NCBI RefSeq assembly: GCF_002849855.1
Contig: NZ_CP018617.1
Location: 930,001 to 994,000, forward strand
Reading direction: 5' to 3'
Length of the DNA: 64,000 nucleotides
Source: Vibrio azureus
GTDB taxonomy: Bacteria > Pseudomonadota > Gammaproteobacteria > Enterobacterales > Vibrionaceae
In this document: piece by piece, positions 1-29,907 of the stretch
Layout: the number at the start of each line of letters is the position of its first letter
How positions within the stretch are numbered: position 1 is the first letter of the stretch
Program-made: the position numbers and the translations under genes
The notes under the pieces: model-generated
Told to the model about the DNA's origin: nothing
What the model saw: the letters and a program-made list of their open reading frames with translations, nothing else
The model's database searches: none

Positions 1-619
1 GAGGTATAAATCATGTAGGCCAAATCATCAGATTCATTACACCAAACCGGGTTCTCTGTACTGTAGGTTTCTAAAGAAGATAAATCACAATCCAATCGCA
101 ATGCTTTACAAGCCAATGGCGTTTCTAGATTATCTTTCAAATGTTCAAGCAACTCGTTTTCCGTCAACAGCACCGAGACACCCGAGTCTGTGAGCATGTA
201 ATCAATGCGCGAAATTGGGTTCACGGGATCAAACGGAATATACGCCCCTCCGGCTTTCATTATCGCTAGAATAGCGACCAAAAACTCAGGTGAACGCTGA
301 GCATAAATACCCACCAAGTCTCCTCTTGCCACGCCAGACTCGCGTAAATAGTGCGCTAACTGGTTAGCTTTGGCATTTAATTCGGCGTAGCTCAGACTGT
401 GATTGTCCCCGATAACCGCCATCGCATCTGGGCAGCGTTGCACCTGAGATTCAAATCGATAATGAACGCAAGGCTCACCATGATAAGTGACGGTCTTACC
501 ATTGAAATCATTGAGGATCTTGGTTCTTTCATCCGATGATAAAATGGAGATATCGCTCATTTTATCGTTTGGACGATGAACAATTTGATGAAGCAGTTGA
601 TCAAAATGTTCAGCCATTC
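1..619 (-). repeat. Long direct repeat inside the NRPS gene, copy 1 (continues off window)
   Basis: Bases 1 to 619 match 3277 to 3895 almost exactly at a constant offset of 3276 bases (1092 codons). I saw only a few substitutions, all near the right end (for example around 522, 543 and 611). The repeat covers the C-to-A linker and the N-terminal part of the adenylation domain up to the SGSTG loop of the last visible module. It probably extends leftwards beyond the window. Confidence 0.95.
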
Positions 620-3600
620 TCTCAATCGTTATTCGATCAAACAAATCCGCAGCATAATCCCAGACCAACGTCAGACCGTTCTGGTTCTCACTGATGTCCA
701 AGCTAAGATCAAACTGAGTCGTAGTGAATTCTTGCTCAACCGGTGTCAAATTAAGATCAGAGAATGACAAAGTGCTATCTGAATTATTATCTAAGGAAAG
801 CATGACCTGAAACAGCGGGTTATAGTTAAAACTGCGTTCTGGTTGAAGTTTATCGACCAATAACTCAAACGGCAGTTGTTGATGTTCAAAAGCAGCGAGG
901 ACCCGTTCACGACTTTGTTGTAACAACTCAGTAAAGCTCAAGTCTTCAGACAAATCCGCACGCAATACCACCGTATTGATAAAGCATCCGATCAGTGGTG
1001 CGATTTCATTTTGCTCTCTATTCGCGATTGGGGAACCTATAACAATATCACTCTCTCCACTGTAACGATTGAGCAGTGCAGAAAATGCCGCATTAAGCAC
1101 CATAAATAATGTAGCTTGATTGCTTCGGGCCAATTGGTTGAGCTCTGACGTCAAGTTTTTATCAATCTGACAAGTAAACTGCGCGCCTTTAAAGCTCGAA
1201 TTATTTGGGCGTTGGTGATCCAAAGGTAAACTGTGCGTAGGCGGTAAATCCGCCAACTGAGTCATCCAATATTCGAGATGACGATCAAGGTTGTTAGCCA
1301 GCCAGTTTCTTTGCCAGTGCGCATAATCACTATATTGAATCGCTAGCGGTGCGAGTCCATTAGGCTCACCTCTTACTGTACTCGCATATATCTCCGACAG
1401 CTCATTGACCATCACACCTTCTGACCATCCATCAGAAGCAATATGATGTAGCGTGAGCAATAGAACATGGCGCGTTTCTGCCAAATGCAGTACCTGTGCG
1501 CGCAGCATTAAGTCCTGACTCAAATCAAAAGCTTGTGACATTTCTTGATGGACTAACGCTTGGACTTGTAATGACTGCTCGGGTTCTGATAACTCGCTCA
1601 AATCAATGACAGGAAGAGTAAACTTAATATCTTGTCGTCGCTGAGCCTTTGCTTCTCCATCGTCCAACTCAAAACAAGTATGCAACACATGATGTCGTGC
1701 AATTATCGTTGAAAATGCTTGTTCAAGAGCTTGAATATTTAAGGCGCCCTCCACTCTGTATGCTGCGGGCATATTATACTCACAACCTTCTGGATCTGAT
1801 TGGTGAATAAACCACATTCTTTGTTGAGCAAACGATAAAGGCACCTGAGCATCGCTTACGACGGATACAATTTCAGGTGTCTGTGTCTTAAATGCAGCAG
1901 ATTGAGTTGAAGCAGATTGAGTTGAAGCAGATTTAATTGAAGCAGAGAGAATTAACGCAAGTTGCGCTAATGTTGGTGCTTCAAAAACCGCTTTTACGGG
2001 TACATCGATGTGTCTATCTGCTCGTATCTGTGCCACCAAACGAGCCACTAACAGCGAGTGCCCACCACAATCGAAGAAGTTGGCGTTCGCACTGACCTGT
2101 TCTAACTGCAGCAACTCACTCCAGAGCGTCGCTAAATACTGCTCTAATTCCCCTTTCGGTTGTTGATATTCACTATCAGCTTGCCAGTTAGGCTCTGGTA
2201 AGGCACGGCGATCAATTTTATCCGCCGCGTTTAAAGGCATCTTGTCTAAAACGGTAAAACTATTTGGCACCATATAATCGGGCAACGAACGTTGCAGTCC
2301 TTGACGCAACTCTGCCGTTGTCGGATAAGGTTGTTGTTTCGCCACCAAATAAGCCGCGAGCGCATTTTGGCCTTGTTGATCACGGCGTATGACAACCGCA
2401 CATTCCCCGACATTATCCAGTTTAGCCAGACTGGCCTCGACTTCACCGAGTTCAACCCTGAACCCTCGGACTTTGACTTGGTTATCAATCCTGCCCATAA
2501 ACTCTAGCGTGCCATCAGGTAACCAGCGCCCTAAGTCTCCGGTGCGATATAAGGTATCACCATGCACTTGATTATCCGGCTCATCATGATAAGGGTTAAC
2601 GACAAAACTGCTTGCGGTCCGCTCCGGCTTATTCCAATACCCTTTACCGACACCAACACCAGATACACACAGCTCACCTGGCACACCAATCGGCTGTAGC
2701 TGAAGCCCTTTGTCCAATACGTACATGGTTAAATTAGGGATCGGCCGCCCAATCGGTACACTCGGTGTGTTTGCGGGTAATGGCGTACGGATAACGTACT
2801 CTGTAATGTCATCAGATGCTTCACTTGGCCCATAACCGTTCATGATCGGGATTTGAGGGTTCAACGCTAACCATTGGTTTAATAATGGCACTGGCGCAGC
2901 CTCTGCGATGGCCATCATCCACTCTAAATCTGGTAAGGCTCTCTCACTCGGTGGCAATGTTTCTAAATGGTCGACAAGTAACTGCAACACCACAGGAGCA
3001 GCTTGCATCAAATGCACTTGATGCTGTTGTAGTAATCGCACTAATTTTGGTATATCAGTCATATCATCCAGAATGACCGTCTGCCCGCCACACATCAATG
3101 GCGCGAGGAACTGCCACACCGAGACATCCGATGAAGAAGCAGCGCTTTGCAAGAAGTTCTTCGCCATCAATTGGTGATTTTCATCGATAAAGTCCAGCAC
3201 ATCAAACTCGGCATCAATATGATTGAGCGCGCCCGCATGATGAACAAGTGCGCCTTTAGGTTGCCCGGTGGAACCGGAGGTATAAATCATGTAGGCCAAA
3301 TCATCAGATTCATTACACCAAACCGGGTTCTCTGTACTGTAGGTTTCTAAAGAAGATAAATCACAATCCAATCGCAATGCTTTACAAGCCAATGGCGTTT
3401 CTAGATTATCTTTCAAATGTTCAAGCAACTCGTTTTCCGTCAACAGCACCGAGACACCCGAGTCTGTGAGCATGTAATCAATGCGCGAAATTGGGTTCAC
3501 GGGATCAAACGGAATATACGCCCCTCCGGCTTTCATTATCGCTAGAATAGCGACCAAAAACTCAGGTGAACGCTGAGCATAAATACCCACCAAGTCTCCT

Positions 3601-6600
3601 CTTGCCACGCCAGACTCGCGTAAATAGTGCGCTAACTGGTTAGCTTTGGCATTTAATTCGGCGTAGCTCAGACTGTGATTGTCCCCGATAACCGCCATCG
3701 CATCTGGGCAGCGTTGCACCTGAGATTCAAATCGATAATGAACGCAAGGCTCACCATGATAAGTGACGGTCTTACCATTGAAATCATTGAGGATCTTAGT
3801 TCTTTCATCCGATGATAAGATGGAGATATCGCTCATTTTATCGTTTGGACGATGAACAATTTGATGAAGCAGTTGATCAAAATGTTCCGCCATTCGAGTC
3901 ATACTTGAGTGCTCAAATAAATCGGTTGAGTATTCCCAATGCAATTGAATCCCTTGTTCAGATTCGACCACATTCAAACTGAGATCAAACTGAGAGGTTG
4001 AATATTCTTGCTCAATAGACTCAAACTCTAGACCATCCAAATTAAAATCAGACTGACGATTATTTTCTACAGACAACATGATTTGGAATAATGGGTTGTA
4101 ACTCAAGCTACGTTCTGGCTGTAATCGTTCTACGAGTGTTTCAAACGGTGCCTGCTGATGCTGTAAACCAGCTAAGGTATTGTCGCGACATTGAGCTAAA
4201 AGTTGAGTAAAGCTTTGTTGATGATCCACTTGCGTTCTCATCACCAAGGTATTGACAAAAAAGCCAATAATAGGCTCAAGTTCAACTTGCTCTCGATTGG
4301 CAACTGGCGTCCCAATCACAATATCCGTTTCACCACTGTAACGGCTGAGCAATAACGAAAACGCGGCTTTGAGTACCATAAATAAACTGGCTTCATTATG
4401 TTGCGCTAACGTTAAAATCAGACGGGATAGTTCTGGACTTAAAGTCTGAGCCAGTTCAGCCCCTTGGAAGCTTTGAATCGAAGGCCGTGCTTTGTCCAAT
4501 GGCAAATGATGCACTGGAGGCAAGTCTGCTAATTGTTGCAGCCAATAATCTAAATGGCGTTCAAGTCGTTCACCTTCAAGCCAAGCACGTTGTGAATAAG
4601 CATAATCACTGTATTGATATTCCAGTGGCAACAAAGGTGTTGGTTCAGTGGTTAAAAACCTATGATAGGCTGATGATAATTCTGAAATAAGTACACTGGT
4701 TGACCAACCATCAGAGGCGATATGGTGCTGCGTAATCAAAAATGCATTGTGTGGCCCTTCCGTTTCTACGCCCTCTTTTTTGAGCTTAACCAACTTAGCT
4801 CTTAGCATTAGATCTTTGCTAAGATTGAACGGTGTGATGGCTTCCTGTTCAACAAGGTTTTCTAACATCACCTGCTGTTCAGTGTGCGAGTACTCCGATA
4901 TATCAATCAGCTCGAGAACGGAATCGAAATCTTGTAAAACGCTTTGATAGACGTTCTGATCTTTGACTCGGTAAACCGTGCGCAATATTTGGTGACGCTC
5001 AACCACGCTGTTCAATGCACGTGTAAATGCAGCAACCTCTAATCTACCATTCACGTAAAACGCTTCTGGCATATTATATTCATAGCCGTTGGGTTCTAGC
5101 TGGGCAATGAACCACAAGCGCTGCTGGGCAAAAGATACCGGAAGTAACGCATCTTGTGGAGCCTTGTTAAGAGGCATCACATGAAGATCCATGAAATCCT
5201 TACTGCCACTTCGAGCCAATTGATTATCGATCTGGCTGGCTATCCCTTTTAACGTTTTTAGCTCAAAAATCGCTTTTAGGCTGAGTTCAACTTGCCAAGC
5301 ATCACGCACCTGAGAAATTAAACCAACCGCCAACAGTGAATGTCCTCCAAGCGCAAAAAAGTGACTGTCTCTACAGACACTTTGGCATGAAAGTAATTGG
5401 CACCAAATAGACGCCAAACGCTGCTCGGTTTCAGATTTAGGTGGCTCATCGCTGTTGAGTAATGTGAGTTTAATATCCAATAAGGCTTGTCTGTTGATCT
5501 TACCTGCCGCAGTTAGAGGCAATTCATTCAGAGACATAAAGATCGCGGGGATCATGTGGTCAGGCAATGTCTTACTCAAATATTCACTCAAATTGTGTTG
5601 GAGTTCTGACTCTAGACCCAATTTGGTGACCAGATAGGCAATCAACTGATCAATGCCTTGCTCTGTTTTCTTTATCATCACCACCGCTTGAATGACGGCC
5701 TCATGCTGCATCAATACTGTTTCAATCTCACCCAGCTCGATACGAAAGCCTCTCAACTTAACTTGGTCATCGATACGCCCAACAAACTCTAATTGCCCAT
5801 CCTGATGATACCTGACCAGATCACCGGTTCGATATAATTTGGCGCCTGGCTTTTGACTCAAATGGTCATCAATAAAGCGCTCTTCGGTTAACGTGTCACG
5901 ATGCAAATAACCATCAGCCAAACAATCACCACCGATTAACAATTCTCCAACAGCACCAACAGGCACACGTTGCATTAATGGGTTAACAACATAAAGTTGA
6001 CGAGGACCACAAGCTTGTCCAATCAACATTGTCGTCAGAGAGGCCAAGTTGTCTGCGGTTATCTCAAAAGCAGTACTGGTGACGGAAGCTTCTGTGGGAC
6101 CGTAAGCATTGATAAAGCGACGACATAAATTCACATCAAAACAGCTTTCTACGGTTGCTTTAGGGATCGCCTCTCCACCTACAACGAGTAATTCTAAGCT
6201 TGTGAGTTGTTTAGCCTCCAGTGTTTTTTGAGAGTTAAGATAAGTTAAATATTGTGATAAATAAGCCAAAGGTAAATCAGCCACACTGATTGCATTCTGG
6301 GTTAAATAGCGATCAAATTTCGATACCTCCATTTCTTGAAGGGAGACAATGTGCAGTTCACAGCCTAGAGTCAAAGGCAGAAAAATTTGCTCAAAGGCAG
6401 CATCAAAATTGACCGATGCAGATAAAATACAGCGATCTTGAGACGTTAACTTAAAGTGGTCATTGATGGTTGCAATATGGTTTGCAGCGGCTTTGCGACT
6501 GACTTTAACCCCTTTAGGCACGCCAGTGGAGCCAGAGGTATAAATAACGTAGGCCGGAGCACTGTGATTACTCGGCAAGCAAGTAAACTCGATGTGATGC

Positions 6601-9600
6601 TCCTCTAATTGCGCGATAGTCTCAGGCGTATCCAACAACATGTACGGCACACGCACTGGTGGTAACAGTCCGAGTTGCTCTGTGTCCGTTATGATGAAAT
6701 CGGCTTGAGAGTCATTCAACATATGCTCCAAGCGAGCTTTAGGATAAGCCGGGTCCAGTGGTAAATAGGCAGCTCCTGCTTTAAAAATCGCGAGTATTGA
6801 GACAATTAAGTCCACGCCTCTCGGTAAGCATAAGCCAACCAAGTCACCTTGCTGGACGCCTTGCTCAATCAATCGATGAGCGAGCTTATCAGCACGATGT
6901 TGTAATGCTTGGTAAGACAAACGTTTCGTGTTCCATACCAAGGCCGTTGCGTCAGGTGTACGCTTTACTTGCAAGTCAAACTGTTCTTCGACCGATAACA
7001 CTTCGGCATCAAGAAAAGCGGTATTCGACCAAGCATTGAGTTTCTGTTGATCCACTTCAGCGAGAATTTCAATGGCATTCAATGGAGCACTTGGGCTCTC
7101 AATAACCGCACCGATCAGTCTTTGCAAGCATTGGGACATACGAGAGATTGTCTCCGGTAAAAAGAGCTCCGTATTGTATTCCCAAGCCAACGCCAACCCA
7201 TGCTCTGTTTCACTCATATCAAGCGTAAGATCAAACTGTGCGGTATGGTTAGGTTGCTCAATTGGAGAAAGCGCAACATCACCAAACTTGAGCGAATTGA
7301 CATTGGTATCATTTAAAGAAAGCATGATCTGGAACAGAGGGTTATAGCTTAAACTCCGCTCAGGCTGCAGATCATCAACAAGAATTTCGAATGGAACATG
7401 TTGATGCTCCCAAGCCTGTAATAATGTTTCTTTGCTGTGGCTCAACAATTGTTCAAAACTTGGGTTACCTGCCGTATCCAACCTTAGCACTAAGGTGTTA
7501 GCAAAAAAGCCTATCAAATCTTTTACTTCAAGCTGGTCACGGTTGGCGATTGGCGACCCCATAACAATGTCAGACTCGCCACTATAACGGCTGAGTAACG
7601 CGGCAAAGAGAGTATGTATCGCCATAAATAAAGTGGCATTATTGTTCTCTGCAAGCTGCTTAAGTTTACTTGTTGTTGCTACATCGATTTGTTGCTTGAT
7701 CTGATTACCCTGAAACTTCTGTACTGCTGGTCGTACAAAGTCCACTGGTAAACTATGTACCAAAGGCAAAGAAGACAATTGCTTACGCCAGTAAGTGAGA
7801 TGTTGTTCAAGCGTATCCCCTTTCAACCAATCACGTTGCCATAGAGCATAGTCTCGGTACTGGATTGGCAAAGGAGGTAATGGAGCCGCTTTTTGTCGTG
7901 AAAAAGCACCATATAACGTTGAAAGCTCGTTAATGAGTAAATTCATTGACCAGCCGTCAGAGGCAATATGATGCATGGTAATCAATAAGACAAAGTTCTC
8001 TTTGTCTAGAGTTAACAACTGAGTTCGCAACATCATATCTTGGCTTAGGTCAAAAGATTTCGACGCTTCTTCTGTGACAAGGCGATGAATTTCTTCGGAT
8101 TTATCTTCAACCGTTAAGTGAGTTAAATCCTTCTGCTGTAATTTAAGAACCCTACCTTTTACCACACTTGATTCAGTGCGCTGCGCTTGTGTTTTCGTTG
8201 ACACTTGTGCATGAGTCGACTCAACATAAACAGTATTTAATACCTCATGACGTTGAACCACTGTCGCGAGAGCACTCTCTAACGCAGCAATATCGAGCTT
8301 TCCAGTCAGTTTAAGCGCGGCTGGCATATTATACTCACTGCCACCAGGGTGCATACGGTCAAGGAACCAAAGCCTTTGTTGTGAAAAGGATAAAGGTGCT
8401 TTGTCTATATTCGGATTTGCAATGATCTGACGTCGATTTGCACGACAATCAACATGGCTTTCTCTATCAATTAAATCAGCTTGATCTTCGAGTGTTTGCG
8501 TTTCAAAAATGGATCTGATGCTAAGATCCACCTCCCAAGCCTGCTTGATCTCAGTGATCAACTTTGTCGCCAAAAGAGAGTGCCCACCCAAGGAGAAGAA
8601 ATTACTCTGTCGACCTACCTGCTCTGTCGCAAGCAGCGTTGACCACAACGAAGCAAGTTTATGTTCTGTTTCAGTTTTTGGTGCTTGATACACGTTTGAG
8701 GAACACAAGTCCGGCTGAGGTAATGCTTTCTTATCCACTTTACCATTGACCGTTAACGGCAATGCCTCCATTAAGCAGAAAACACTTGGGATCATATAAT
8801 GAGGCAGTGATAGTTTCGCTTGTTCTATCAGCTCTTGCTCAGAAATAAGGAAACTTTCTGCGTCTTTTTCTGCAACAACCCACGCAACCAGTTGCTTTTC
8901 CTTACTTCCTTTTGCCGACTGAGCCAACACAAGCGCATCTTTGACGCTTTGATGACGACTCAAAGCATTCTCTATTTCTCCAAGCTCAATACGAAAGCCA
9001 CGAATTTTTATCTGATCATCACTTCGTCCAACAAAAACAAGCTCGCCACTTGGTAACCAACGAACTCGATCTCCTGTTTTGTAAACACGCTTTGCTTCTG
9101 GATTGGAGAATTTTGAAAGATCTGAGCCACTTGGAAGAGATAAATCGAAAAATTTTTCCTTAGTCAACTCAACCTGATTTAAATAACCTCTTGCTAAACC
9201 TAAGCCGGCAATATGCAGCTCACCTTCAACACCAATAGGCACGATCTGCTGTTCATCATCCAAAACATAGATAGAGAGGTTATCTAATGCAGAACCAATG
9301 TTAAGTGTTTGATGTGGCTGTACTCTCGATATCGTGGCGCATACCGTACATTCTGATGGGCCATAGGCATTGTATAATGGAAAGCGCTCTGCCCATTGCC
9401 AAGCTAAAGCCTGATCACAGGCTTCTCCACCGACAATTAAAACTTGGAAAGCGTATTCTCTTTCCATGTCCAAGTGTGCAAGTAAAGACGGTGGTATCAG
9501 CGCATGTGTGACTTTATGCTCCAATAAAAAGTCCGATAGCTTGTCTGGATTCACACGAGTATTGTCGCTACAAATGTATAAGCAGGCTCCCTGTGTCAAC

Positions 9601-11765: not shown

Positions 11766-11817
11766 GTTTTGTCTCATTGTCATATTTTTTGATTTTTTTG
11801 ATGACGCGTGTCCGTAC

Positions 11818-20800: not shown

Positions 20801-21534
20801 TTGGCTTTTTTCTCTAACGTTTGATGAAGAGAAGCTGACATCTCTAAAGAGACTTTGTGACTGGACGCTTCTAATGATGAGGTTTGCTTATGAACACTAG
20901 GCAATAATAATGGCTCTGGTAACGTTTTGAACTTCTCATTCCAATAAGCGGCATCTTTGGAATATTGATCTGAGTCTAAATACGTGTGCTCTTCGAAAAT
21001 CACTTCCTGAAAGTTTCCAACCCGTGAGCTCAACGCTTGGTTTTTACCAGAAAGTAATGACTTTAAATGATTAATTAGCAGATAAATACCCATTCCATCC
21101 ATCATGATATGGTGTGCTTTAATGCACCAAAAATATTGATCATCATGAATTTTATAGAGATAAGAGGCTAAAAGGCGCTCTTCGCCGAGTTTGAAGGGTT
21201 GCTCAAACACCACGTTTATCTGCTCTATCGCTTGTTGCTCAGGGTTTGAAAAAGTAGAAAAATCTTGTGTGATGAGAGGAAAAGAATTGTGGTGACCAAA
21301 TTCTTGCATCAACTGCTTATCTTTCACGACGAAATGAATACTCAGGACATCAAAGTTGAACACGCAAGCATCCAATTGCTTCTGTAAAGAAAGCGCTTGC
21401 TGTTTGTTTAAACTAATGTAACAACCAATGTTGTAGCAAGGGTCGTCTGGCTTTAACATCTGGTCAAAATAAATGCTTTCCTGAGAAGTGGTCAATGGGC
21501 AAACAGTTGGGTGTTGAAAAACACGATCCATCAT
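11818..21534 (-). CDS. Nonribosomal peptide synthetase, modules 1 to 3 (predicted Dab-Thr-Dab)
   Basis: This 3238-residue protein has the domain order C-A-PCP, C-A-PCP, C-A-PCP. Condensation motifs are HHIMMDG (residues 141-147), HHIASDGW (about 1195) and HHALWDGW (about 2312). Adenylation SGSTG loops lie near 615, 1708 and 2780, and carrier motifs GGHSL, GGDSI and GGHSL near 1001, 2100 and 3165. The first C domain is unlike the elongating ones and resembles the EntF-type domain that takes an external acyl or aryl group, so the chain is probably N-capped. By-eye pocket codes are DIWELTADDK, DFWNIGMVHK and DIWEMTADDK. The second is the established Thr code. The first and third are nearly the same and carry Glu278, Asp330 and Asp331, which suit a cationic side chain; Dab is inferred from the linked ectB-like gene. 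The acidic C-terminal tail (DLDLDSLSEQELDQYLALL) is probably a docking segment. The AGGAATTAATC before the start is shared with the exporter gene upstream. Confidence 0.95.
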   Translation of the reverse strand: MMDRVFQHPTVCPLTTSQESIYFDQMLKPDDPCYNIGCYISLNKQQALSLQKQLDACVFNFDVLSIHFVVKDKQLMQEFGHHNSFPLITQDFSTFSNPEQQAIEQINVVFEQPFKLGEERLLASYLYKIHDDQYFWCIKAHHIMMDGMGIYLLINHLKSLLSGKNQALSSRVGNFQEVIFEEHTYLDSDQYSKDAAYWNEKFKTLPEPLLLPSVHKQTSSLEASSHKVSLEMSASLHQTLEKKAKEMGATLHHFGLAALILYFSKEKQRDDVVIATPVHRRKNAIQKNTLGMFTTDLPGRFDLSSTETVEELINQVKKEQRSNLRHQSYPMHQLGRALNLTGQGRAFLSEVVFNYIKAPTEVNFVATDTGRDPLQVRITESANVDAMSPSTPVIEIYCRNAYLNQQEVALFAQRYLHVLEQFASIEPQACLSDISIITSSERDQLLNQFNCTQQPQLIAKSWPELFANQVKQTPEAIAVQQEEQSITYRELDTRSNMIAHALHAKGIGSGNLVALLDHRGIDLVTMMIAVLKSGAAWVPLDPNHPAKRWLDILQESDPAALLVGNTLLLEQRSLKRKWNKEKVFNIDEFLALNVGDSELCHYPAMNDLAYIIFTSGSTGKPKGVMIEQAGLINNMLAKFEPLSLEPQDVIAQTASQCFDISIWQTLTALLLGAKVDVVPFEICRDPSALLAYLEKQKVTIWEPVPSMMQAALDCHQPLSSLRWVLPTGEALSASLVSQWFDCYKHIPLMNAYGPAECSDDVAFQPIHQAVDRVLIGQPVANVKLYILDDQQALLPLGAVGEIAVSGPVVGRGYLNLPKQTQAVFIDNPYSQDETDQRLYLTGDLARRLPDGSLEYIGRKDHQLKIRGYRIEPGEIETQLLCHSMVVEAVVDAKYDKHDQLLLVAYVVLDTQSEIELESNQLRHWLKSTLPLYMVPQVIVTLDKLPLTPNGKIDRKALPQPTFEQEQQCIAPQTETEEKLVAMWIQLLDRKSISNQANFFDIGGHSLLASRMLSMIRDTWHVDLRIKDIFEAQHLADLANMIDHASQTSLPTITPVVQQNGSLPLSFAQQRLWFIDQLENDATEYNMSAAFSIKGNLNESALEKALSHIIARHHILHTVYQQIDGQVEQHRLAEIHFQLNKQDLTKLSASEQQDKLAYLISDKTLYPFDLSRDLMLRANLFKLSHQEHRLLIVVHHIASDGWSKALLLEELSTLYGVFSQQPFPQLSLSQETPEAQKAILPPLAVQYSDYAHWQRNWMNEERLDKEIHFWRESLKGLPPVHSLPLDKPRPAQQSHNGQTLSLDLSAEVSERVLQLAKQHNVTLFMLMNAALACLFHRYSGEDDIVIGTPVANRDQPQIASLVGFFVNTLLIRSDLSGNPSFADMLARSKQSALDAFSHSQLPFDTLVETLKPERSLSYNPLFQIMLAVQNNTQSSLHLAELEIEEQTLDGLRSQFDISVEVQQIGAQLKLNWTWATDLFEPATIESMAMHLNQLLCNVSQQEVSQNKISQNNVAQNNVSVQPQQKVTEISFITESQRQSLINHWVANLNPITSQDVLHQRFEQQAKCYPDSIALSDEQEQMTYQELNQRANRLAHYLIEQGVGPDVLVGLSVHRCCDMVIGLLAILKAGGAYLPLDPAYPSLRLAHMLEDSATKLILSTSEIKQQLPISDQRVIDIDHQALFSEYSPENPSRGVSADNLAYVIYTSGSTGKPKGVMVEHRQVIRLFDASEQHFQFNSSDVWSLFHSFAFDFSVWEIWGALLHGGKLIIVPQWVARSTTDFYQLLCDEGVTVLNQTPTAFGHLIGVDSEHRQPLKLRYVIFGGEALNMKSLVPWINRHGDNAPQLINMYGITETTVHVTYRRIYQQDVQNTCSNSSLIGQPLQDLAMYLFTPNLDVVPTGVPGEIYVGGAGVARGYLNRSDLNQTRFIDNPFVPGERLYRTGDLARYRHDGELEYLGRCDQQVKIRGFRIELGEIESSLLSLPEVTEAVVLPRDEPKRLVAYVVISSGDEHAGSDNIAKLREAMVQQLPEHMVPAAFVLLDKLPTTANGKTDRNALLSMKIEEQSHHQFVAPSTLTEQALCEIWQTQLKVDKVGVLDNFFHLGGDSIRAISIVAASKKAGINYSIRDLFAFPEIQSLANEIQQKNTHVEELQQVEVFGLLDTAEKHWLSEHGDHESIEDAYPQSSLQQGMIVHSLLSAAEGTYHDIFGYRVKARWDEALFRNALSKLVYSQESFRTLYLSGVERPLSVVYKHIDLPFECIDLCHMTKDQQDKVMQEHSMNEKSAPFDFTQPLWRIFIFQLAQDEFYYQLSFHHALWDGWSVASLNTQLFDLYTRALRKETLPELKKPLSYRQFIALEQQSEQNQQTKGYWQSHLQQVQLPWWASAEQNGTTLLSYSLASHHDKKLKALAHHLKVQEKSVFLAIHMVLLAQISGCSDITTSVVTNGRPEMEGSDKTLGLFLNSLPLRVGDVKQDWHQLIRQLDEQWLMMMPHRHYPLAKIQQITGIEYSSSLFNYIDFHVYKQMDQDIQILRVDDFEQTNYLFDANYSRHPLTEQFEISINLDSGCFNHDFVECIKEYLDQIVCDLAENSDSLVETTRYLGQKEIQSLSDWNNTTDPALLQHSWPELFHQQVMKSPEAVVAICEGNQLTYQQLNEQSEALARSLRHKGIRNGDVVGLLDHRGLDLLIMIVAVLKSGAAYMPMDPEQPLERWQKILNESQPTLLIVGDKLQDTQRKLSGTWQQDKICAYSELFAEVPTSLCTDALPWPSLGDLAYVLFTSGSTGRPKGVMIEHRGMINNMLSKFEPLALTQHDVIAQTASQCFDISVWQFLTAPILGAKVVIVPSSITQDPKALLTQLNQHAVTIWEPVPSVIKAALYYQIELPSLRWVMPTGEALSSELVSVWFEQYPQIPLMNAYGPAECSDDVAFQVIDSPIEKVMIGTPVANAHLHVVSPSLELVPVGVVGELAVSGAVVGRGYRDQPEKTQAVFVSNPWPRDEFDSRMYLTGDLVKRHADGRLEFIGRKDFQVKVRGYRIELEEIEATLSQHEMVNESVVIARSNHSGDAVLVAYVVLNQPERDSATLGSVSKAIKEYLQQQLPQYMVPDNISFLEAMPLSANGKLDRNALPDPVNDREKEYKAPVSETEKQLASIWQILLNNTEISRYDNFFDIGGHSLLAARMINHIRDQWQVDLAFKSVFEATHLAEVASMIDADKALLQLHDLDLDSLSEQELDQYLALLAEQ

Positions 21535-21592
21535 AATAGATTAATTCCTTTTATATTTTTACGCATAAGTTGCGCCAAGAAATTGCGCCAAG

Positions 21593-21637
21593 AGTGACAT
21601 CGCGCTGAATAAAGCATCTTGAGGTCACTTGGGTATA
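21593..21637. repeat. Terminal fragment of the Vibrio TATACCCAAG repeat
   Basis: This roughly 45-bp stretch matches one end of the long repeat at 48414-48697 (gtgac..tcgc.ctgaat.aagcatcttgag) and finishes with the terminal CACTTGGGTATA. It lies between the exporter gene and the first NRPS gene. Confidence 0.75.
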
Positions 21638-21654
21638 TATTTTTCTGTAATTTA

Positions 21655-23325
21655 TTATGTTTCTAATGAACATGGTGCATTGGAACGCATAGGTGAATGA
21701 GACATTTCCATGGCCAGTCCGGCTTCGAATTTGTACAGCTTGTCAGACAAATGAAAATATCGGTCATCATGGCTGATCACGATGACAGCTTTGCCTTTCT
21801 TTTTCATATCAGGTAATAACTCTTGATAGAAAAACTGTCTAAAATACGGGTCTTGATCTGCAGCCCACTCATCAAATAGGCACACGGGTGTGTCTTCTAT
21901 ATAAGATTGAAGCAAAGCGAGTCTTTTTCTCTGGCCATGAGACAGAGATATCGTGGATAGAACACCCTCTTTAACCGAAACTTTTTTATCCAGTTTTAAA
22001 AGTTTTAGGTAATGGTTGACCTTGTCATCACTCGCAAGCTGCCCTTCGTGATTAAGAACGTGATTGAATACATAAAAATCAGAAAAAATCGTACTGAAGT
22101 TTTTCCGGTATTGTTCACCCTCTCCTAGCGTATTTACCTGATCAGCATCTAAAAATACTTGCCCACTTGTTGGTTGATATAAGCCTGTCAATAACTTCGC
22201 AAACGTTGATTTGCCACTGCCGTTGCCACCAGTAATAAACGTAACTTCTCCACGCTTAAAACGAGCATTGATCGGACCTAATACAAATTGATAACCAGAA
22301 GACTCGTTAGACTGATATTCATACGTTACCTGGTTAAGAGACAACTCAGACCAATCAGAATCACTAAGATCACTTTCTTTGGTTTCAAACTCATCGACGT
22401 TCTCAGATAATTTAAGCTTTTCTATTTTGCGATTAGCGACTAAGCCGTTACTGAACTCTTCAAAGCTATCGACAACAAAGCTAAGAGGCCCTATGAGGTA
22501 GATCATGACCAAAATAAATTTCACCATGACATCCACAGAAATCTCTGAGAAAAAAAACTGACTGCCATACACCACCGCTCCCATTGAGGTGAACAAAACA
22601 ACATTGGTCCAGTTGGTGATGTAAACAAAAAACATTTTGGCTTTGACATCTGCTTTTTGGACTTTCTTTATGGTTGGTGTCGCGACATCACGGTAAAAAA
22701 AACGCTTACGATTAGGATTGATATATAATTCCTTACCCCCTTCTACTAGAGCTTTGATATGCGCGAATAACTCGTCATCACACTCCCTAAGTGACTCATA
22801 ACTTTTAATGCCTTTTTTAAGAATCAAGCCTCCAACTAATACCGCGATACTCAACAGAAACACAACGACAAGAAAAAGCTGCCAGGAGTGGTAAGCCATA
22901 TAAGCCAAACAAAACAAAACGGCACTAAAGTTGTAAACAAATAAAGGCAAAATAGATAAAGCTTCAGAAGCGGTTCTGATATCTCCCGTTAAAGTGACGT
23001 ATATTCTATGACCGCCAATTTTCTCTAGATTTGAATAGCTCGTGGACAAAACCCTTTTAATCATTGTATCGCGTAGGGTCGCAACGACAGAGGCACTCAA
23101 CTTGGACAGTATAAACTGTGAAAAAACACCAAAAAAAGCTAACGTAACGATACCAGTGATGAACAAGGTGAGCCCTTCTTGCAGATCAGCAGTACCGTTA
23201 GTCATTTCGGTCAGTTGGTCATTCACCAACGCCATAATACTAATACCAGCTAATGCACTCAGTACACTGAATACCGTAGCAATAAATATTGTCAATTTAT
23301 ATCGAGCTAAAAGGTTACTCAACAT
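21655..23325 (-). CDS. Cyclic peptide/siderophore ABC exporter, SyrD/PvdE family
   Basis: This 556-residue protein fuses an ABC-transporter membrane domain (about six hydrophobic segments within residues 1-300) to an ATP-binding domain. Walker A is GGNGSGKST (about residue 370), the signature is LSHGQRKRLAL, and Walker B runs into DEWAADQDPYFRQFFY. The DEWAADQDP string is typical of the SyrD/PvdE group that exports syringomycin and pyoverdine precursors across the inner membrane. The gene sits directly upstream of the first NRPS gene, about 120 bp away, so it probably exports the cluster's peptide. It has a good ribosome binding site (AGGAATTAATC before ATG). A self-resistance role is possible but is inference. 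Confidence 0.92.
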   Translation of the reverse strand: MLSNLLARYKLTIFIATVFSVLSALAGISIMALVNDQLTEMTNGTADLQEGLTLFITGIVTLAFFGVFSQFILSKLSASVVATLRDTMIKRVLSTSYSNLEKIGGHRIYVTLTGDIRTASEALSILPLFVYNFSAVLFCLAYMAYHSWQLFLVVVFLLSIAVLVGGLILKKGIKSYESLRECDDELFAHIKALVEGGKELYINPNRKRFFYRDVATPTIKKVQKADVKAKMFFVYITNWTNVVLFTSMGAVVYGSQFFFSEISVDVMVKFILVMIYLIGPLSFVVDSFEEFSNGLVANRKIEKLKLSENVDEFETKESDLSDSDWSELSLNQVTYEYQSNESSGYQFVLGPINARFKRGEVTFITGGNGSGKSTFAKLLTGLYQPTSGQVFLDADQVNTLGEGEQYRKNFSTIFSDFYVFNHVLNHEGQLASDDKVNHYLKLLKLDKKVSVKEGVLSTISLSHGQRKRLALLQSYIEDTPVCLFDEWAADQDPYFRQFFYQELLPDMKKKGKAVIVISHDDRYFHLSDKLYKFEAGLAMEMSHSPMRSNAPCSLET

Positions 23326-23498
23326 GATTAATTCCTAAATATATTCATGACACAACCTCAAACTTTTATTATAAAGAGTAGGAGTTGATTCATTAAATGA
23401 AATATGGATAAGAAATCTAGAAACAAAAAACAATCGTTTAAGGGAATCTTTTCAATTTTTAATAAGTAATCTCTATTAAATTACTTTGAAAGATATAC

Positions 23499-24809
23499 TT
23501 AAGCGCAAGATTTTATATCTTCAGAATGCTTACATACTCTAGCATGCATAGCGCTATACTGTGCATTAGTTATACTTCCATAACAAAAAACCAAAAAGGT
23601 TTCCTCGTTAACTTCCCATATATGGAAATAAGAAACTCTCTCTTTATTTAAAGTAACTTCGATATCTTTTTTAATACCGGAAATCAATATTAGCCCCACT
23701 TCTTTTGAATTAGAGTAGTTTTCTCGAAATTCAGGCTTAATAAAACAGTATTGATTTTCCGGAGAACGTGACTCTAACAAGACATGAGCATTTTTTAATT
23801 TAGTCAGTTCTTCAGATGCGAGTAAGGAAATATGATTCACTGCTGAGACCAAACACACACTTGGCTTGTATTTCCGCACGATCTTAGTACCTGGAGCTGA
23901 AGGATGGTGGCTGTTTTTTAAAAAGACTTCGCAATCTACATTGCCGATGACGTCTAGGGTGCGGGTATGCAGGACTGGACTTCCTGTTTTGGCTAAAGTA
24001 TCGGCAAGCTCCCAGCTGATTTCTGCAAGTGGGTATGCCTCTTCAACTCGATTAGGGTCTGCGCTATAAATCCCTGATACATCGCTCCAAAAAAACAATT
24101 TAGTCGCACCAGTTAAACGTGCACATAAACTAGCCGAGTAATCACTGCCGTTTCGCCCTAACGTCACTGTGCGACCCTGCTTATCGGAAGCGATGTATCC
24201 CGTTACCACTTTAAGACTCGAGTCATCAGAAATTGGCACCAAACCGAGGTGGCTCAGCTTTTTCTTACTGACTTCCAGATCAACATGTTCACCATCGCAC
24301 AGGATAAATGATCTAGAATCAACGGCCTTGGCTGGTTTGCCCAAACAAGTCAGTAACTGAGCCATTAATCTCGCAGACCAAAGCTCTCCAAAGCATACCC
24401 AATCGTCAAAACACGTGACTAAGCGATCACAGCTAAAAATCTGTTTTTTCAGCTGGTCAATATCCTGTTGTAATTCATTGCTAAGTTGATGTCTTATAAG
24501 TTCTTGTTCAAAGAGCTCATCAATATTGTAAAAGACATTGAATAAGTTCAACTGAAAATGTGCAATGTCCATTAATAGGCTCAAAGCCTGTTCTTTTTCT
24601 TGAAACGCTTTTTCGGCAACATTAATGAGTCGGTTGGTGGTTTTTCCAGCTGCAGAAACCACCACCCACCCATCCATCGAACTCATGCCATTGCCAGTAT
24701 GGCTCTTGATGATTTGGGCGACTCTTAAAAAAGAATCGGGGCAACTCAAACTAGAGCCACCAAATTTATGAATATGAGTTTTTTTAATTCTCGAACAACT
24801 TAATTCCAC
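23499..24809 (-). CDS. Stand-alone aspartate kinase dedicated to the peptide cluster
   Basis: Aspartate kinase phosphorylates L-aspartate as the first step towards aspartate semialdehyde. The 436-residue protein begins HIHKFGGSS, like the kinase half of MetL/ThrA, and carries GRNGSDYSAS and WSDVSGIYSADPN. Unlike MetL/ThrA it has no homoserine dehydrogenase half. The C-terminal region of about 120 residues, where ACT regulatory domains normally sit, looks divergent, so it may escape feedback control (inference). Start is GTG at 24809 with GGA eight bases upstream. Ectoine operons often carry a dedicated kinase (ask_ect) beside ectB; here the same pairing occurs without ectA or ectC, and aspartate semialdehyde would feed Dab for the NRPSs. 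A semialdehyde dehydrogenase is not in the window. Confidence 0.9.
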   Translation of the reverse strand: MELSCSRIKKTHIHKFGGSSLSCPDSFLRVAQIIKSHTGNGMSSMDGWVVVSAAGKTTNRLINVAEKAFQEKEQALSLLMDIAHFQLNLFNVFYNIDELFEQELIRHQLSNELQQDIDQLKKQIFSCDRLVTCFDDWVCFGELWSARLMAQLLTCLGKPAKAVDSRSFILCDGEHVDLEVSKKKLSHLGLVPISDDSSLKVVTGYIASDKQGRTVTLGRNGSDYSASLCARLTGATKLFFWSDVSGIYSADPNRVEEAYPLAEISWELADTLAKTGSPVLHTRTLDVIGNVDCEVFLKNSHHPSAPGTKIVRKYKPSVCLVSAVNHISLLASEELTKLKNAHVLLESRSPENQYCFIKPEFRENYSNSKEVGLILISGIKKDIEVTLNKERVSYFHIWEVNEETFLVFCYGSITNAQYSAMHARVCKHSEDIKSCA

Positions 24810-24900
24810 GGAAAATCCTTTATCTATGATTAAATTGAAATTATGAATCTTTTAATTTTTAAAATGGATTCCATTCTATTATATTTTTAGTGGTTAAGAT

Positions 24901-25773
24901 TTATGAAATATAATTGAGGTAAGACTTGTACCTTTCAAAACATTGATCATTGCCATCGCCAAGAGAGAGTGCTTTAAAAACTTGCGAGTTGTAGCGTAAA
25001 TTAACCAATGGCATTCCTTTAAAGCACCCCAGAAAAGATTGAAAGACACTATTCAAAGTGTGAAAGTCCACATTAAAGGAGATACCATCATCTAGGCTTC
25101 TGACTTGATGCAAAGTACCTGGCGGCATATAAAATATATCCCCACTCCTCACCGTAATATGTTCTACTTTGGCATGCTTAAAATCTGGAAACTTGTCATA
25201 ATCTGGATTGTCAGGATCAACATCAAACCAGCGCCACCCTTTTCGATAGCAGTATCGGCCATCTCGAGGGTGGATAATGGTAAATACCTTTTCACCTTTA
25301 ATTTGAAAAAATAAATTATGAGTCAGTAAAGTATCAAAGTGTAAAGGCGTGACATTACCTTTGTTAGAAACGAAGAATTGAGCATATCGGGACCAGTTTT
25401 TCGCGTACCAATCTGGAAGGACTTCTGAAGGAAACCAACCGATATCATTGAGAAGTGCTTTTTCCAACAAAAAAATAGGCACATCATGACAATAAGGAAT
25501 CGATCGATTTTTTTTCTCATCTTGAGAAATTTTTAATTTTCCTATGATAGAAGCATATTGACCCATCGACATGTTTTTAGATTTAATGCCTTCCTGACCA
25601 AATATTTTCGTTACAATAGGTATGTTCGGATAAGACTGGGCAAAAAAATCTAAACTCCATTTATTGACTGCAGGCCAATCTGCGACCGCACCTCTAAAAA
25701 CAGAGGTATGCTTCCCTAAACAAAGGTGCTGAAACTCGCTAGACTCGAAATAATTACGTTCTATTATCGACAT
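24901..25773 (-). CDS. JmjC/cupin-like Fe(II)-2-oxoglutarate dioxygenase homologue (second of pair)
   Basis: This 290-residue protein belongs to the cupin_8/JmjC-like family that hydroxylates amino acid side chains in proteins or peptides. The metal triad is visible: His and Asp in TPLHFDTL, and the distal His in PPGTLHQVRS, on strands flanked by GEKVFTIIHP and SGDIFYMPPG. It starts 15 bp after the stop of the paralogous gene, so the two are co-transcribed. The likely role is tailoring, for example beta-hydroxylation of an amino acid or carrier-bound residue, but the substrate is unknown. A spectator role as a host protein hydroxylase cannot be excluded. Confidence 0.85.
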   Translation of the reverse strand: MSIIERNYFESSEFQHLCLGKHTSVFRGAVADWPAVNKWSLDFFAQSYPNIPIVTKIFGQEGIKSKNMSMGQYASIIGKLKISQDEKKNRSIPYCHDVPIFLLEKALLNDIGWFPSEVLPDWYAKNWSRYAQFFVSNKGNVTPLHFDTLLTHNLFFQIKGEKVFTIIHPRDGRYCYRKGWRWFDVDPDNPDYDKFPDFKHAKVEHITVRSGDIFYMPPGTLHQVRSLDDGISFNVDFHTLNSVFQSFLGCFKGMPLVNLRYNSQVFKALSLGDGNDQCFERYKSYLNYIS

Positions 25774-25788
25774 TATTCACAGCCCCTT

Positions 25789-26733
25789 CTAAACATGTAC
25801 TTGTTCTTCAAGAGCTTGCTCTATCTGATAAAAATACTGGTTGTAACGTTTGATAATGTCTGCAGGTGCCGCGAAGTTTTCCCCTGCTTGTTGGTAGAAG
25901 TAGTTAAGAACCTCAAACTCACTGTCATTCTTGGGATCATCCATTAAATAATCGATGTATTCTAATGCACCTCTTTCATGAATAAAGTTCCAAGTTATTG
26001 AGACAGAGTCTTCAACAGCAATTACATCGTGCAACCAGCCATGAGGTACGTAAAGAAGTTCTCCTGGATTTAAGCGCCCTTCAAAATCAGGTGTAACACT
26101 GAGTGTATCTAAACGTTCTTTTCGAACATCTAAATATCCGCCAAAAGAATCATCAGAATGATTTATGCTTAGCTCTTTAACACGGCTAGGATGGTACATC
26201 GCCACATCTTTAGAGCCATAAAACTGAACGACCATCGCATCACTACAAAAAGGGTCGGTATGAAGGCGGGTTCTCGCACCACGAGCGGCAACAAGAATGC
26301 CTCTGTAAGGAAAAGGATCAATGACTGGATCGGGATATTGATCTTGTTGAGAAGGAGGGATTAATAAGTTTTTACCACTGAAGAAGTCAGGTTTCTTCCA
26401 TAAAGAGCGCAATTTTGCAAAAGCCTCATCTCCCCAAGCATAATCTACGTCTTTTAAACGGTTGTACCAACGAACATAAGGAATATTAGGCTTATAATCT
26501 CCAGATTTACCAAAATACTCATCAATATACTGACTCAAAGTGGAGAGATTCTTCAAGTCAAAAAGTGAATCGTATTCCTGAGTAGGTAAATGACCGATAA
26601 GATCTTTCAAATGATCAGGGTGCCACTTATCTTTTTCAAATTTCAAGTTTTTAATAACAACTGGCTTATTTTTTTCAATATATTCTGAGGTAAATAACTC
26701 TTCACTAATATTATCGAGAACATCAATTTTCAT
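25789..26733 (-). CDS. JmjC/cupin-like Fe(II)-2-oxoglutarate dioxygenase homologue (first of pair)
   Basis: This 314-residue protein has the same fold family as its downstream neighbour but is only distantly similar. The metal ligands are seen in RTRLHTDPF (His-x-Asp) and in the later VPHGWLHDV, preceded by LNPGELLYVP. Its start overlaps the end of the aminotransferase gene by 11 bp and has the ribosome binding site AGAAGAGG, which suggests translational coupling. Being locked into the operon with the Dab aminotransferase argues that it modifies a building block or the peptide. The reaction is not predictable from sequence. Confidence 0.85.
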   Translation of the reverse strand: MKIDVLDNISEELFTSEYIEKNKPVVIKNLKFEKDKWHPDHLKDLIGHLPTQEYDSLFDLKNLSTLSQYIDEYFGKSGDYKPNIPYVRWYNRLKDVDYAWGDEAFAKLRSLWKKPDFFSGKNLLIPPSQQDQYPDPVIDPFPYRGILVAARGARTRLHTDPFCSDAMVVQFYGSKDVAMYHPSRVKELSINHSDDSFGGYLDVRKERLDTLSVTPDFEGRLNPGELLYVPHGWLHDVIAVEDSVSITWNFIHERGALEYIDYLMDDPKNDSEFEVLNYFYQQAGENFAAPADIIKRYNQYFYQIEQALEEQVHV

Positions 26734-28078
26734 TGCACACCTCTTCTATATTGGTGACGTTATTTTTGATATCTGTTATTTTTTCGAGCAATGCTTTTTC
26801 TTCGATACATTGATTAAAAACAGAGCAAACTAATTTTATGATGTCACCAATATTTGCTAAAGAAGATTTAAGAAGTGAAGTAGTCATATTAAGAGCTGGC
26901 ATAAATTTAAGAACTTGATCTCTTTCCCCGCATGTTTCAATTAAGATCTTATTCTCAAAGCAAGCTTTTGCTACAGCTGCTGTTAAGACTTCATCATAAA
27001 ATTCAATTCCCTGAAATAGCCCAACTCCTCTCGTCTCCTTGATATATTCATCGCATTCGGTTTTCAATTGATGAAAAAACTGATGAAATAGGATTTCTTT
27101 TTCTTTAAGTTCACTTTCAAAACTATTATCAGACCAATACATCTCGATCATTTTCTTTGACGCGATAAATGCCAAATTATTGCCTCTAAATGTACCGTTA
27201 TCCTCGCCGGGTGCCCAAATATCTATCTCAGGATTAATCAATAACAAAGCCATAGGGAATCCAATTCCACCAATAGACTTAGACAAGCAGACTAAGTCAG
27301 GCTTAATATCTGCTCTTTCAAAACTAAAGAAAGCGCCAGACCTACCTACACCGGCCTGAATATCATCCACAATAAGAAGGATGCCAAAATCTGAAGCCAA
27401 TTGACGAATTCCCTTTAACCAATGATTGGAAGCGACATTAACCCCCCCTTCACCCTGGATGGTCTCTAGAATAATCGCTGCAGGCAGATCAATCCCAGAA
27501 CTTGCATCAGTAAGAAGCTTACGATAATAACTGATCGAGTCATAACCTTGTCCAAGATATCCATCGTAAGGCAATCGGGTCACCCCACCTTGAGAAACGG
27601 CTTGTCGCTTACTCTTGTTACCTGTAAGACTCAGTGACGTCCCTGACATCCCATGGAAGGCATTGGTGAAACAAATGACATTCTGTCTACCTGTGGCTTT
27701 TCTCGCAAGCTTTACTGCAGATTCAACAACACTGGTGCCTGTTGGGCTAGTAAATTGTATCTTATAATCTAAGTTTCTAGGCACTAAGATATTATGATTA
27801 AAAGTTTCAATAAACTCTTTCTTGGCTGAAGTATGAAGGTCTAAGCTCATTAGCACCCCATTACTTTCTATATAATCAATAATATCTGACTTTATTTCCA
27901 AGCAATTATGTCCATAGTTTAGAGCACCAGCACCACATAACATATCTAAATACTGATTCCCTTCGGTATCATATAGATAACTATCTTGAGCTTTATTAAA
28001 TGTTACGACAAAATTACGACAATAACTTCTAGCTTGGGATTCATACTTATCATATGTATTTGAGCTAATTTCATCCAT
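26723..28078 (-). CDS. ectB: Diaminobutyrate-2-oxoglutarate aminotransferase, EctB type
   Basis: This PLP class III aminotransferase converts aspartate 4-semialdehyde and glutamate to L-2,4-diaminobutyrate. At 451 residues it matches EctB (about 420) with some 25 extra C-terminal residues. EctB hallmarks are FTSPTGTSVVE, AFHGMSGTSLSLTG, DDIQAGVGRSGAFFSFE, the PLP-lysine motif LSKSIGG, and GEDNGTFRGNNLAF. The ectoine genes ectA and ectC and the Dab decarboxylase are absent from the window. The next genes are two dioxygenases, an aspartate kinase, a peptide exporter and NRPSs with acidic A-domain pockets, so Dab is most likely a peptide building block. It is the first gene of the run, with its promoter in the AT-rich stretch to the right. 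Confidence 0.9.
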   Translation of the reverse strand: MDEISSNTYDKYESQARSYCRNFVVTFNKAQDSYLYDTEGNQYLDMLCGAGALNYGHNCLEIKSDIIDYIESNGVLMSLDLHTSAKKEFIETFNHNILVPRNLDYKIQFTSPTGTSVVESAVKLARKATGRQNVICFTNAFHGMSGTSLSLTGNKSKRQAVSQGGVTRLPYDGYLGQGYDSISYYRKLLTDASSGIDLPAAIILETIQGEGGVNVASNHWLKGIRQLASDFGILLIVDDIQAGVGRSGAFFSFERADIKPDLVCLSKSIGGIGFPMALLLINPEIDIWAPGEDNGTFRGNNLAFIASKKMIEMYWSDNSFESELKEKEILFHQFFHQLKTECDEYIKETRGVGLFQGIEFYDEVLTAAVAKACFENKILIETCGERDQVLKFMPALNMTTSLLKSSLANIGDIIKLVCSVFNQCIEEKALLEKITDIKNNVTNIEEVCNEN

Positions 28079-28995: not shown

Positions 28996-29907
28996 TCATT
29001 CATCGTCTGGTAGATCATCTGATGACTGCTGAGTAACATTAAATGTACGGCTAATGGTTTGTGCCTGCTCAATACTTATCCCACCCTGCCAACGACGACT
29101 ACTGATTGTTAAAGCAAGTACATAACGTGATTGCGGTATCGCATTATCGGGTAACGATGTTGGGTAATTTGATTTGTAGCTTTTTTGCCAAACTTCCTCA
29201 AACTCTCCATTTGTATAGTCGAAAAGTGACATTTCTAGTTCAGGCAGAGGACAATAAGAGTTGATCAACACACTTTTTTCAACTTTCCAACTGTCGTTAG
29301 ACGTCCAGCGTACATAAAGAGATGAGTTTGACATCCCTAAAATAACCCATGTTCTGTAAGTTTGAAAATCGCCACTTTTAATTGTTAGATGATACAAGCC
29401 AGGCTCTAACCTTCCGGAGATGTTGTAATGTTTTAAATATGTTTTTAGATTGTAACTTGGGTCAGTGCCCTGTGTGGAATCTTTTTCATAGTTAAACTTG
29501 TTATCGGAAGAAATAGACTCTTCAAACCAACGTTCAAAAACAATTTCGTCAATATCCTTCGTTGAACTGGCCTCAATCACAACCTTATAGGAGTCTCTAC
29601 CCGGGCTTTGTATAGTTTGATGAACAATGTTTAAACTTTTAAGCCAGTCAGGAAACTCTGGGGATGTTAAAGACTTACCACAGTCTTTGGTCAACGATTG
29701 CGCCAATAGCTCATCCAAGTGAGCACCAACCCCAGGATCGGTTTGACGCTGTAGAAGTTCGACAAGATCATCAAACATTGCACCTAAATCGTCCTCAAGA
29801 AGGTCTTTGTGAGCACGCTCTAGGGGCGAGTTAGATTGAAACCAGTCCATAGAATAGGCTGGTTTTATCAACATTAACAAAAGAAATAACGCAATTGATG
29901 ATTTCAT
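28996..29907 (-). CDS. vxrC: VxrC-like periplasmic protein (DUF2861)
   Basis: This 303-residue protein has a clear N-terminal signal peptide (about residues 1-19, ending PAYSM) and no other membrane segment, so it is probably periplasmic. I assign it as the third gene of the vxrABC operon from position and general similarity to the DUF2861 family. Only 10 bp separate it from vxrB. In V. cholerae the Vxr system responds to cell-wall damage and controls murein synthesis, type VI secretion and biofilm; the molecular role of VxrC itself is not established. Confidence 0.75.
   Translation of the reverse strand: MKSSIALFLLLMLIKPAYSMDWFQSNSPLERAHKDLLEDDLGAMFDDLVELLQRQTDPGVGAHLDELLAQSLTKDCGKSLTSPEFPDWLKSLNIVHQTIQSPGRDSYKVVIEASSTKDIDEIVFERWFEESISSDNKFNYEKDSTQGTDPSYNLKTYLKHYNISGRLEPGLYHLTIKSGDFQTYRTWVILGMSNSSLYVRWTSNDSWKVEKSVLINSYCPLPELEMSLFDYTNGEFEEVWQKSYKSNYPTSLPDNAIPQSRYVLALTISSRRWQGGISIEQAQTISRTFNVTQQSSDDLPDDE

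Follow-up and report, generated by a model that had tools for sequence, protein, structure and literature searches.

The window analysed here is a 64,000-nucleotide stretch of Vibrio azureus (G000:C2:930001-994000) from a 4.83 Mb assembly of four contigs that includes a second large replicon. It carries, at its left end, a nonribosomal peptide synthetase (NRPS) cluster that is very likely an alterin/ogipeptin-type lipopeptide cluster in a Vibrio. The minus-strand gene run codes for EctB, two JmjC oxygenases (JmjC1 and JmjC2), an aspartokinase, a cyclic-peptide exporter and two synthetases, NRPS1 and NRPS2. Genome contigs were scanned with a profile of the JmjC1 alignment, which gave 32 candidate stretches and 13 confirmed loci; two of the 13, in Pseudoalteromonas sp. 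HM-SA03 and P. ostreae hOe-66, have an identical gene order and seven modules. Strain hOe-66 has been named among the alterin strains, as have hOe-124 and hOe-125 (PMC10458718). Alterins are also credited to P. ostreae hOe-125 and P. rhizosphaerae hCg-42 (PMC11858371), and they were obtained from Pseudoalteromonas hCg-6 and hCg-42 (PMC7764243). The pocket codes, taken by motif from an alignment of adenylation (A) domains, are equal to those of both Pseudoalteromonas clusters at modules 1, 2, 4 and 6 and differ by one letter at modules 3, 5 and 7. The alterin ring contains Leu, Arg, 2,4-diaminobutyric acid (Dab), dehydrobutyrine (Dhb) and three hydroxylated Dab (OH-Dab) residues, with the plain Dab placed among Leu, Dhb and the tail (PMC7764243). 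The masses calculated with seven tails, from 926.57 to 982.63 (954.6 for C10:0), are the same as seven masses reported from hCg-6/hCg-42 (PMC7764243). On three other NRPS contigs of hOe-66 (contigs C7, C22 and C46), no Dab-type code was seen in 11 of at least 12 A-domain matches. Since the predicted composition, order and mass match and the same gene set is present in an alterin strain, the structure of the peptide is most likely already known.

The cluster genes are as follows. Here and below, "C2:" before coordinates denotes a contig, C1, C2 and C3 are condensation (C) domains of the NRPSs, and A1-A7 are their A domains.

26723..28078, minus strand: EctB-type diaminobutyrate:2-oxoglutarate aminotransferase, likely Dab supply (TIGR02407, 601.6 bits, cut-off 552.2)
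25789..26733, minus strand: JmjC1, Cupin_8/JmjC oxygenase, proposed Dab hydroxylase for residue 1 (Pfam Cupin_8)
24901..25773, minus strand: JmjC2, Cupin_8/JmjC oxygenase, proposed for modules 6 and 7 (Pfam Cupin_8)
23499..24809, minus strand: stand-alone aspartokinase, MetL-like (Pfam AA_kinase)
21655..23325, minus strand: SyrD/PvdE-type ABC exporter (TIGR01194 'cyclic peptide export', 415.9 bits, cut-off 286.2)
11818..21534, minus strand: NRPS1, 3238 aa, modules 1-3 (Pfam: three C, three A and three thiolation (T) domains)
1..11840 and on leftward to C2:927843, minus strand: NRPS2, modules 4-7 and thioesterase (Pfam: four C, four A and four T domains)

An earlier note on this DNA had listed an ectB-like gene, two JmjC-like dioxygenases, a stand-alone aspartate kinase and a SyrD/PvdE-type exporter, and these identities are borne out, with the HxD...H residues kept in both oxygenases. 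Its count of at least seven NRPS modules on one strand holds for the whole cluster, which has seven C-A-T modules, and for the window itself only if the cut A7 is counted beside the six complete A domains. The part left of base 1, which the note had proposed to retrieve, extends for about 8 kb, to about C2:921990. NRPS2 (4665 aa in all) ends within this part, at C2:927843, with its thioesterase. After it come genes of the MacA, TolC, MacB, MacB and ABC kinds (L001:9990-15637), a MacAB/TolC-type exporter. The Pfam search of NRPS1 and NRPS2 (E <= 0.001) gave no domain types beyond C, A, T and thioesterase; an epimerisation domain was found neither in that search nor, in clear form, in a motif scan, which fits the all-L reading used in PMC7764243. 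A transposase-like protein (HTH_28/HTH_29, with a weak rve_3 match) lies left of the MacAB/TolC-type genes at L001:6583-7782, and has a partial match near the equivalent site in one relative.

The domains on which the predicted chain depends are given below, with the meanings that we take the codes to have.

20185..21534, minus strand: C1, starter-type condensation domain, predicted to place the fatty acid onto residue 1 (best solved match 7c1k/7c1h)
19093..20139, minus strand: A1, code DIWELTADDK, presumably Dab
15790..16857, minus strand: A2, code DFWNIGMVHK, presumably Thr
13675..15057, minus strand: C3, condensation domain proposed to dehydrate Thr2 to Dhb (McyA 8jbr as best solved match)
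12613..13662, minus strand: A3, code DIWEMTADDK, presumably Dab
9180..10253, minus strand: A4, code DAWLIGAVCK, read as Leu-like
5904..6980, minus strand: A5, code DAEDVGAVTK, read as a basic residue (Arg in alterins)
2634..3731, minus strand: A6, code DVWQMIGDDK, proposed beta-OH-Dab or Dab
C2:929358-930455 (window -642 to 455, cut by the left end), minus strand: A7, code DVWQMIGDDK

Taken in order, the modules predict the chain acyl-Dab1-Thr2(Dhb)-Dab3-Leu4-Arg5-X6-X7, which would correspond to the alterin order OH-Dab/Dab, Thr(Dhb), Dab, Leu, Arg, OH-Dab, OH-Dab. The product is thus probably a Dab-rich, N-acylated, hydroxylated cationic peptide starting with Dab-Thr-Dab, as the earlier note had proposed. 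Among solved structures C1 is nearest to 7c1k/7c1h (101 bits, the next 76 bits), which is the starter domain of RzmA, RzmA-Cs (PMC7804268), and this would agree with the N-terminal fatty acid of alterins and ogipeptins. For C3 the matches were McyA 8jbr with 258 bits, AmbE with 144, McyB with 137 and surfactin synthetase with 134. The McyA domain is presumably a dehydrating one. AmbE-C2 is a dehydrating domain according to PMC10880069; a search of this review found no mention of McyA. The proximity of C3 to McyA and then to AmbE suggests that Dhb could be formed from Thr2. As a control, the C2 domain matches neither McyA nor AmbE at E <= 1e-20. C1 and C3 share 15-22 % identity with the remaining C domains, and these are 43-52 % identical among themselves.

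A6 and A7 are 97 % identical at the protein level and 91 % at the DNA level. A comparison of A6-T6 (window 2166-3797) with A7-T7 (window 521 and leftwards) over about 544 codons showed nine synonymous and two amino-acid changes. Codon counts place the near-identity between about residues 2682 and 3225; its upstream boundary is sharp, and before it the two copies have diverged freely. Slow divergence by purely synonymous change was considered and dropped in view of that boundary; it is a recent homogenisation, by gene conversion or duplication. Within each of the two Pseudoalteromonas clusters, A6 shares 65-67 % identity with A7.

In the proposed pathway, the aspartokinase and EctB would supply Dab, C1 would attach a fatty acid to residue 1 and the seven modules would assemble acyl-Dab1-Thr2-Dab3-Leu4-Arg5-X6-X7. 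C3 would dehydrate Thr2 to Dhb, and residues 1, 6 and 7 would become beta-OH-Dab through the two JmjC oxygenases, with JmjC2 most likely acting for 6 and 7 and JmjC1 for 1. The thioesterase would join residue 7 to residue 1 to form the ring, and the resulting polymyxin-like, lipopolysaccharide (LPS)-binding antibiotic would be exported by the SyrD-type and MacAB/TolC-type pumps. With OH-Dab at residues 6, 7 and 1 and closure from 7 to 1, three consecutive beta-OH-Dab residues would result, as in ogipeptins (PMC11763372). Ogipeptins, from Pseudoalteromonas sp. SANK 71903, have the ring of the alterins, with Dhb of the opposite geometry (PMC7764243); SANK 71903 was compared here by its structure description and not by sequence.

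Several points weigh against this reading. The cluster is known here from genes, its product being predicted; the codes carry presumed meanings, and the readings of A4 to A7 lean on the alterin structure. The AmbE match of C3 is hardly above those of McyB and surfactin synthetase, and the E or Z form of Dhb is not readable from genes. EctB speaks for the production of Dab but not for its entry into this peptide. The genes read next to the Vibrio cluster do not include EptA and PAP2, which could provide lipid A self-protection, though we do not regard this feature as a defining one. PMC11763372 places ogipeptin under head-to-tail cyclisation; we expect closure through the side chain of the acylated residue 1, for which the mass would be the same.

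Among the alternatives, the best that survives is a congener in which Vibrio keeps the seven-module plan with a changed residue, acyl chain or hydroxylation pattern. The orthologous A domains of Vibrio and Pseudoalteromonas are just 56-71 % identical and the C1 domains 44-45 %, and the single-letter code differences could be read in this way; however, the codes are otherwise equal and the cluster has both oxygenases, each with its metal-binding residues intact, and we regard a congener as unlikely. That the cluster is present yet yields nothing in this host is less probable again, only a slim chance being given to it. Its occurrence in one of 227 same-genus genomes could mean a recent and poorly adapted arrival, but all the cluster genes read are open over their full length, and the recent homogenisation of A6 and A7, with so few amino-acid changes, speaks against decay. 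The least probable is a siderophore, rejected in spite of the PvdE-type pumps in the exporter's family and the Dab of pyoverdines, because none of the seven codes is known as an Asp or N-hydroxyornithine code, none of 30 neighbouring proteins scanned has a TonB-receptor or ornithine-monooxygenase domain, and the cluster matches the alterin strains.

Dab beta-hydroxylation at three residues calls for oxygenases, and two with intact metal residues were seen; their sites and substrate are predicted. The HxD...H residues are H158/D160/H235 in JmjC1, invariant in an alignment of 20 sequences, and H145/D147/H222 in JmjC2, invariant in 16. A model of JmjC1 (predicted local distance difference test score, pLDDT, 84.4) has its best PDB matches in JMJD5, TYW5 and JMJD6. 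EctB accompanies JmjC1 in 10 of those 13 loci, the exceptions being L009, L013 and L016, where no EctB was seen within the stretches read. JmjC2 adjoins EctB in Pleionea and in P. ulvae, and in G676 it lies near EctB and a kinase of the clade described below; EctB was not found near JmjC2 in G606, G637 and G638 within the stretches read. Among 108 Pseudoalteromonas genomes, JmjC2 was found in seven (E <= 1e-60) and an A6-like domain in six (E <= 1e-125), five being shared (Fisher p = 1.1e-6, with relatedness ignored and G001 and G002 sharing one cluster). The A6-like search was limited to 14 scored candidates in each genome, and codes were read for its 12 matches only. The exceptions are G637 and G638, with JmjC2 only (40 % identity), and G618, with an A6-like domain only, of code DVWEMTCDDK. 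The code DxW[QE]MIGDDK was seen in G001, G002, G606, G676 and G694, all of which have JmjC2, though in G606 the two are on different contigs.

NRPS loci with JmjC1 only, in Lysobacter sp. yr284 (cut at the contig end) and a Lysobacterales metagenome-assembled genome, have DIWELTADDK and no DVWQMIGDDK in eight A domains. Loci with JmjC2 and no JmjC1 in the stretch read have one DVWQMIGDDK each, among nine A domains in Pleionea (one read partly) and three in P. ulvae. JmjC1 also accompanies Pls/PosA-type synthetases of another code, and is thus not tied to DIWELTADDK. From this pattern of co-occurrence, with few independent cases, it is hypothesized that JmjC2 tracks A domains with DxW[QE]MIGDDK (modules 6 and 7) and JmjC1 tracks Dab systems more generally, which is the basis for assigning residues 6 and 7 to JmjC2 and residue 1 to JmjC1. 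There could then be two routes to the same residue. JmjC2 would give beta-OH-Dab for DxW[QE]MIGDDK pockets, either as free OH-Dab selected by the pocket or by hydroxylation of Dab on the carriers of modules 6 and 7, and JmjC1 would hydroxylate the Dab of an ordinary DIWELTADDK domain, for which it must tell module 1 from module 3. We put this forward tentatively, at a little under an even chance; it was lowered from an even chance because in G606 the genes are on different contigs with no nearby EctB.

Other EctB-JmjC2 NRPS clusters have different codes (L041/L042 in G485, inferred to be Pleionea sp. CnH1-48, and L043 in G694, inferred to be P. ulvae UL12; examples are DIESIGTVTK, DVWQMIGDDK and DMENSGAVNK) and would make further peptides. 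EctB, a Pls/PosA-family single A-T synthetase and JmjC1 were observed together at L010:4363-10900, where the synthetase has a TIGR02353 match of 539.7 bits (cut-off 423.1; this locus only). Similar sets occur in L011, L012, L014 and L015, and in L009 without an EctB match. These loci, in Roseovarius, Rhizobiaceae, Crenothrix and others, are possibly makers of poly-(hydroxy)diaminobutyrate. They share EctB and JmjC1 with the Vibrio cluster but have a single A-T synthetase with a Pls-type C-terminal part and no multimodular NRPS.

The aspartokinase and EctB likely form the Dab supply, in agreement with the earlier note. EctB shares 70-71 % identity with its counterparts in both Pseudoalteromonas clusters and 49 % with the second ectB of the genome (C2:693928), beside which lies the single ectC (C2:695215), about 260 kb from the cluster. 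There is hence no ectC in the cluster, as the note had said, while for ectA no dedicated search was made. An ectoine operon was rejected as the identity of these genes on the distance of ectC, and capture of the host ectoine operon on the identities of EctB and on the MetL-like nature of the kinase. A third EctB-like stretch, 42 % identical, lies within a 995 aa open frame at G000:C1:1836325-1837557. The best of the 24 NCBIfam matches of the kinase is the MetL-type PRK09466 (residues 1-380 of 810, 263.5 bits, below the cut-off of 582), and the weakest is PRK09181, which we take to be an ectoine-linked kinase. The kinase is 37 % identical to the genome's own MetL-like frame (806 aa). Pfam sees only AA_kinase in it, and loss of the regulatory part was considered; this was dropped, as its model (pLDDT 88.3) matches whole aspartokinases (3c1n, template modelling score 0.78), with the full fold apparently kept. 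It groups with stand-alone MetL-like kinases (P0242-P0245, P0247-P0255) from Pseudoalteromonas, Thalassomonas and Pleionea in one clade, with 33-46 % identity and 84-98 % coverage. At least four of the clade appear to share a contig with a JmjC2 relative, which suggests a dedicated supply kinase.

The cluster was probably gained by horizontal transfer. JmjC2 is present in one of the 227 same-genus genomes, V. azureus itself (E <= 1e-30), and in two of 394 genomes sampled from the order, V. azureus included (E <= 1e-60). The NRPS genes have a GC content of 43-44 %, the tailoring genes one of 38 % and the flanks 39 and 41 %, so that composition alone is weak evidence for transfer. The window genome has a VxrA match (824.5 bits, cut-off 750), and the vxr region was read in three relatives out of 12 other same-genus genomes with a VxrC match. 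In all three, vxrC is followed by a protein of 213-380 aa whose first stretch ends in AANYAIEARG and which is taken, on sequence, for VxrD. Two of them (L077 and L078) have genes matching the left flank of the cluster on that vxr side within 8 kb, without the cluster, and in L076 no left-flank match was seen in the region read. In V. azureus the cluster sits between vxrC and the left flank, and no match to the VxrD-like protein was found among open reading frames of at least 100 aa in C2:912001-994000, the interval searched. This points to an insertion or replacement at the vxr site. VxrC itself (DUF2861, window 28996-29907) is 38-45 % identical to its best match in the 12 other genomes.

In both Pseudoalteromonas clusters, PAP2 and EptA come directly after NRPS2 (L017:3419-6103 and L019:2308-4816), and lipid A modification is a likely means of self-protection there. 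V. azureus has one EptA elsewhere, at C2:1160076. Alterins kill several Vibrio species (PMC7764243, Table 2), which raises the matter of how this host protects itself.

Polymyxin is a ten-residue chain rich in Dab. The predicted product shares with polymyxins the acyl-Dab-Thr-Dab start and the cationic nature, but has seven modules, with Thr converted to Dhb, beta-OH-Dab and Leu-Arg; the comparison is one of structures. Alterins bind LPS with a potency similar to polymyxin B (PMC7764243). Odilorhabdins of Xenorhabdus also contain Dab(beta-OH) (PMC8749412) but, unlike the predicted product, are linear and ribosome-targeting, the comparison being of compounds and not of gene clusters.

The earlier note knew of no described Vibrio product with this plan. 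That stands for Vibrio in the open-access literature searched, in which neither a Vibrio Dab lipopeptide nor a JmjC/diaminobutyric hydroxylase was found, but it does not hold beyond Vibrio, for the alterins and ogipeptins share the plan. A close match to something characterised, which the note had named as what would speak against its view, thus largely exists for the product (PMC7764243). No published alterin gene cluster was found in the open-access literature, the 2022 alterin paper (Int J Antimicrob Agents 59:106514) being outside that scope. The plan itself is known; what is added here is the likely link between gene cluster and product for alterins and ogipeptins, the Vibrio host and the two-hydroxylase hypothesis. 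This gives a gene cluster that can be tested module by module for polymyxin-like compounds active on Gram-negative bacteria, and candidate enzymes are proposed for the rare beta-OH-Dab and for Dhb. If the two routes to beta-OH-Dab hold true, DxW[QE]MIGDDK would be a usable signature of this residue in genome mining, and the alterin gene cluster would be in hand for a Vibrio too.

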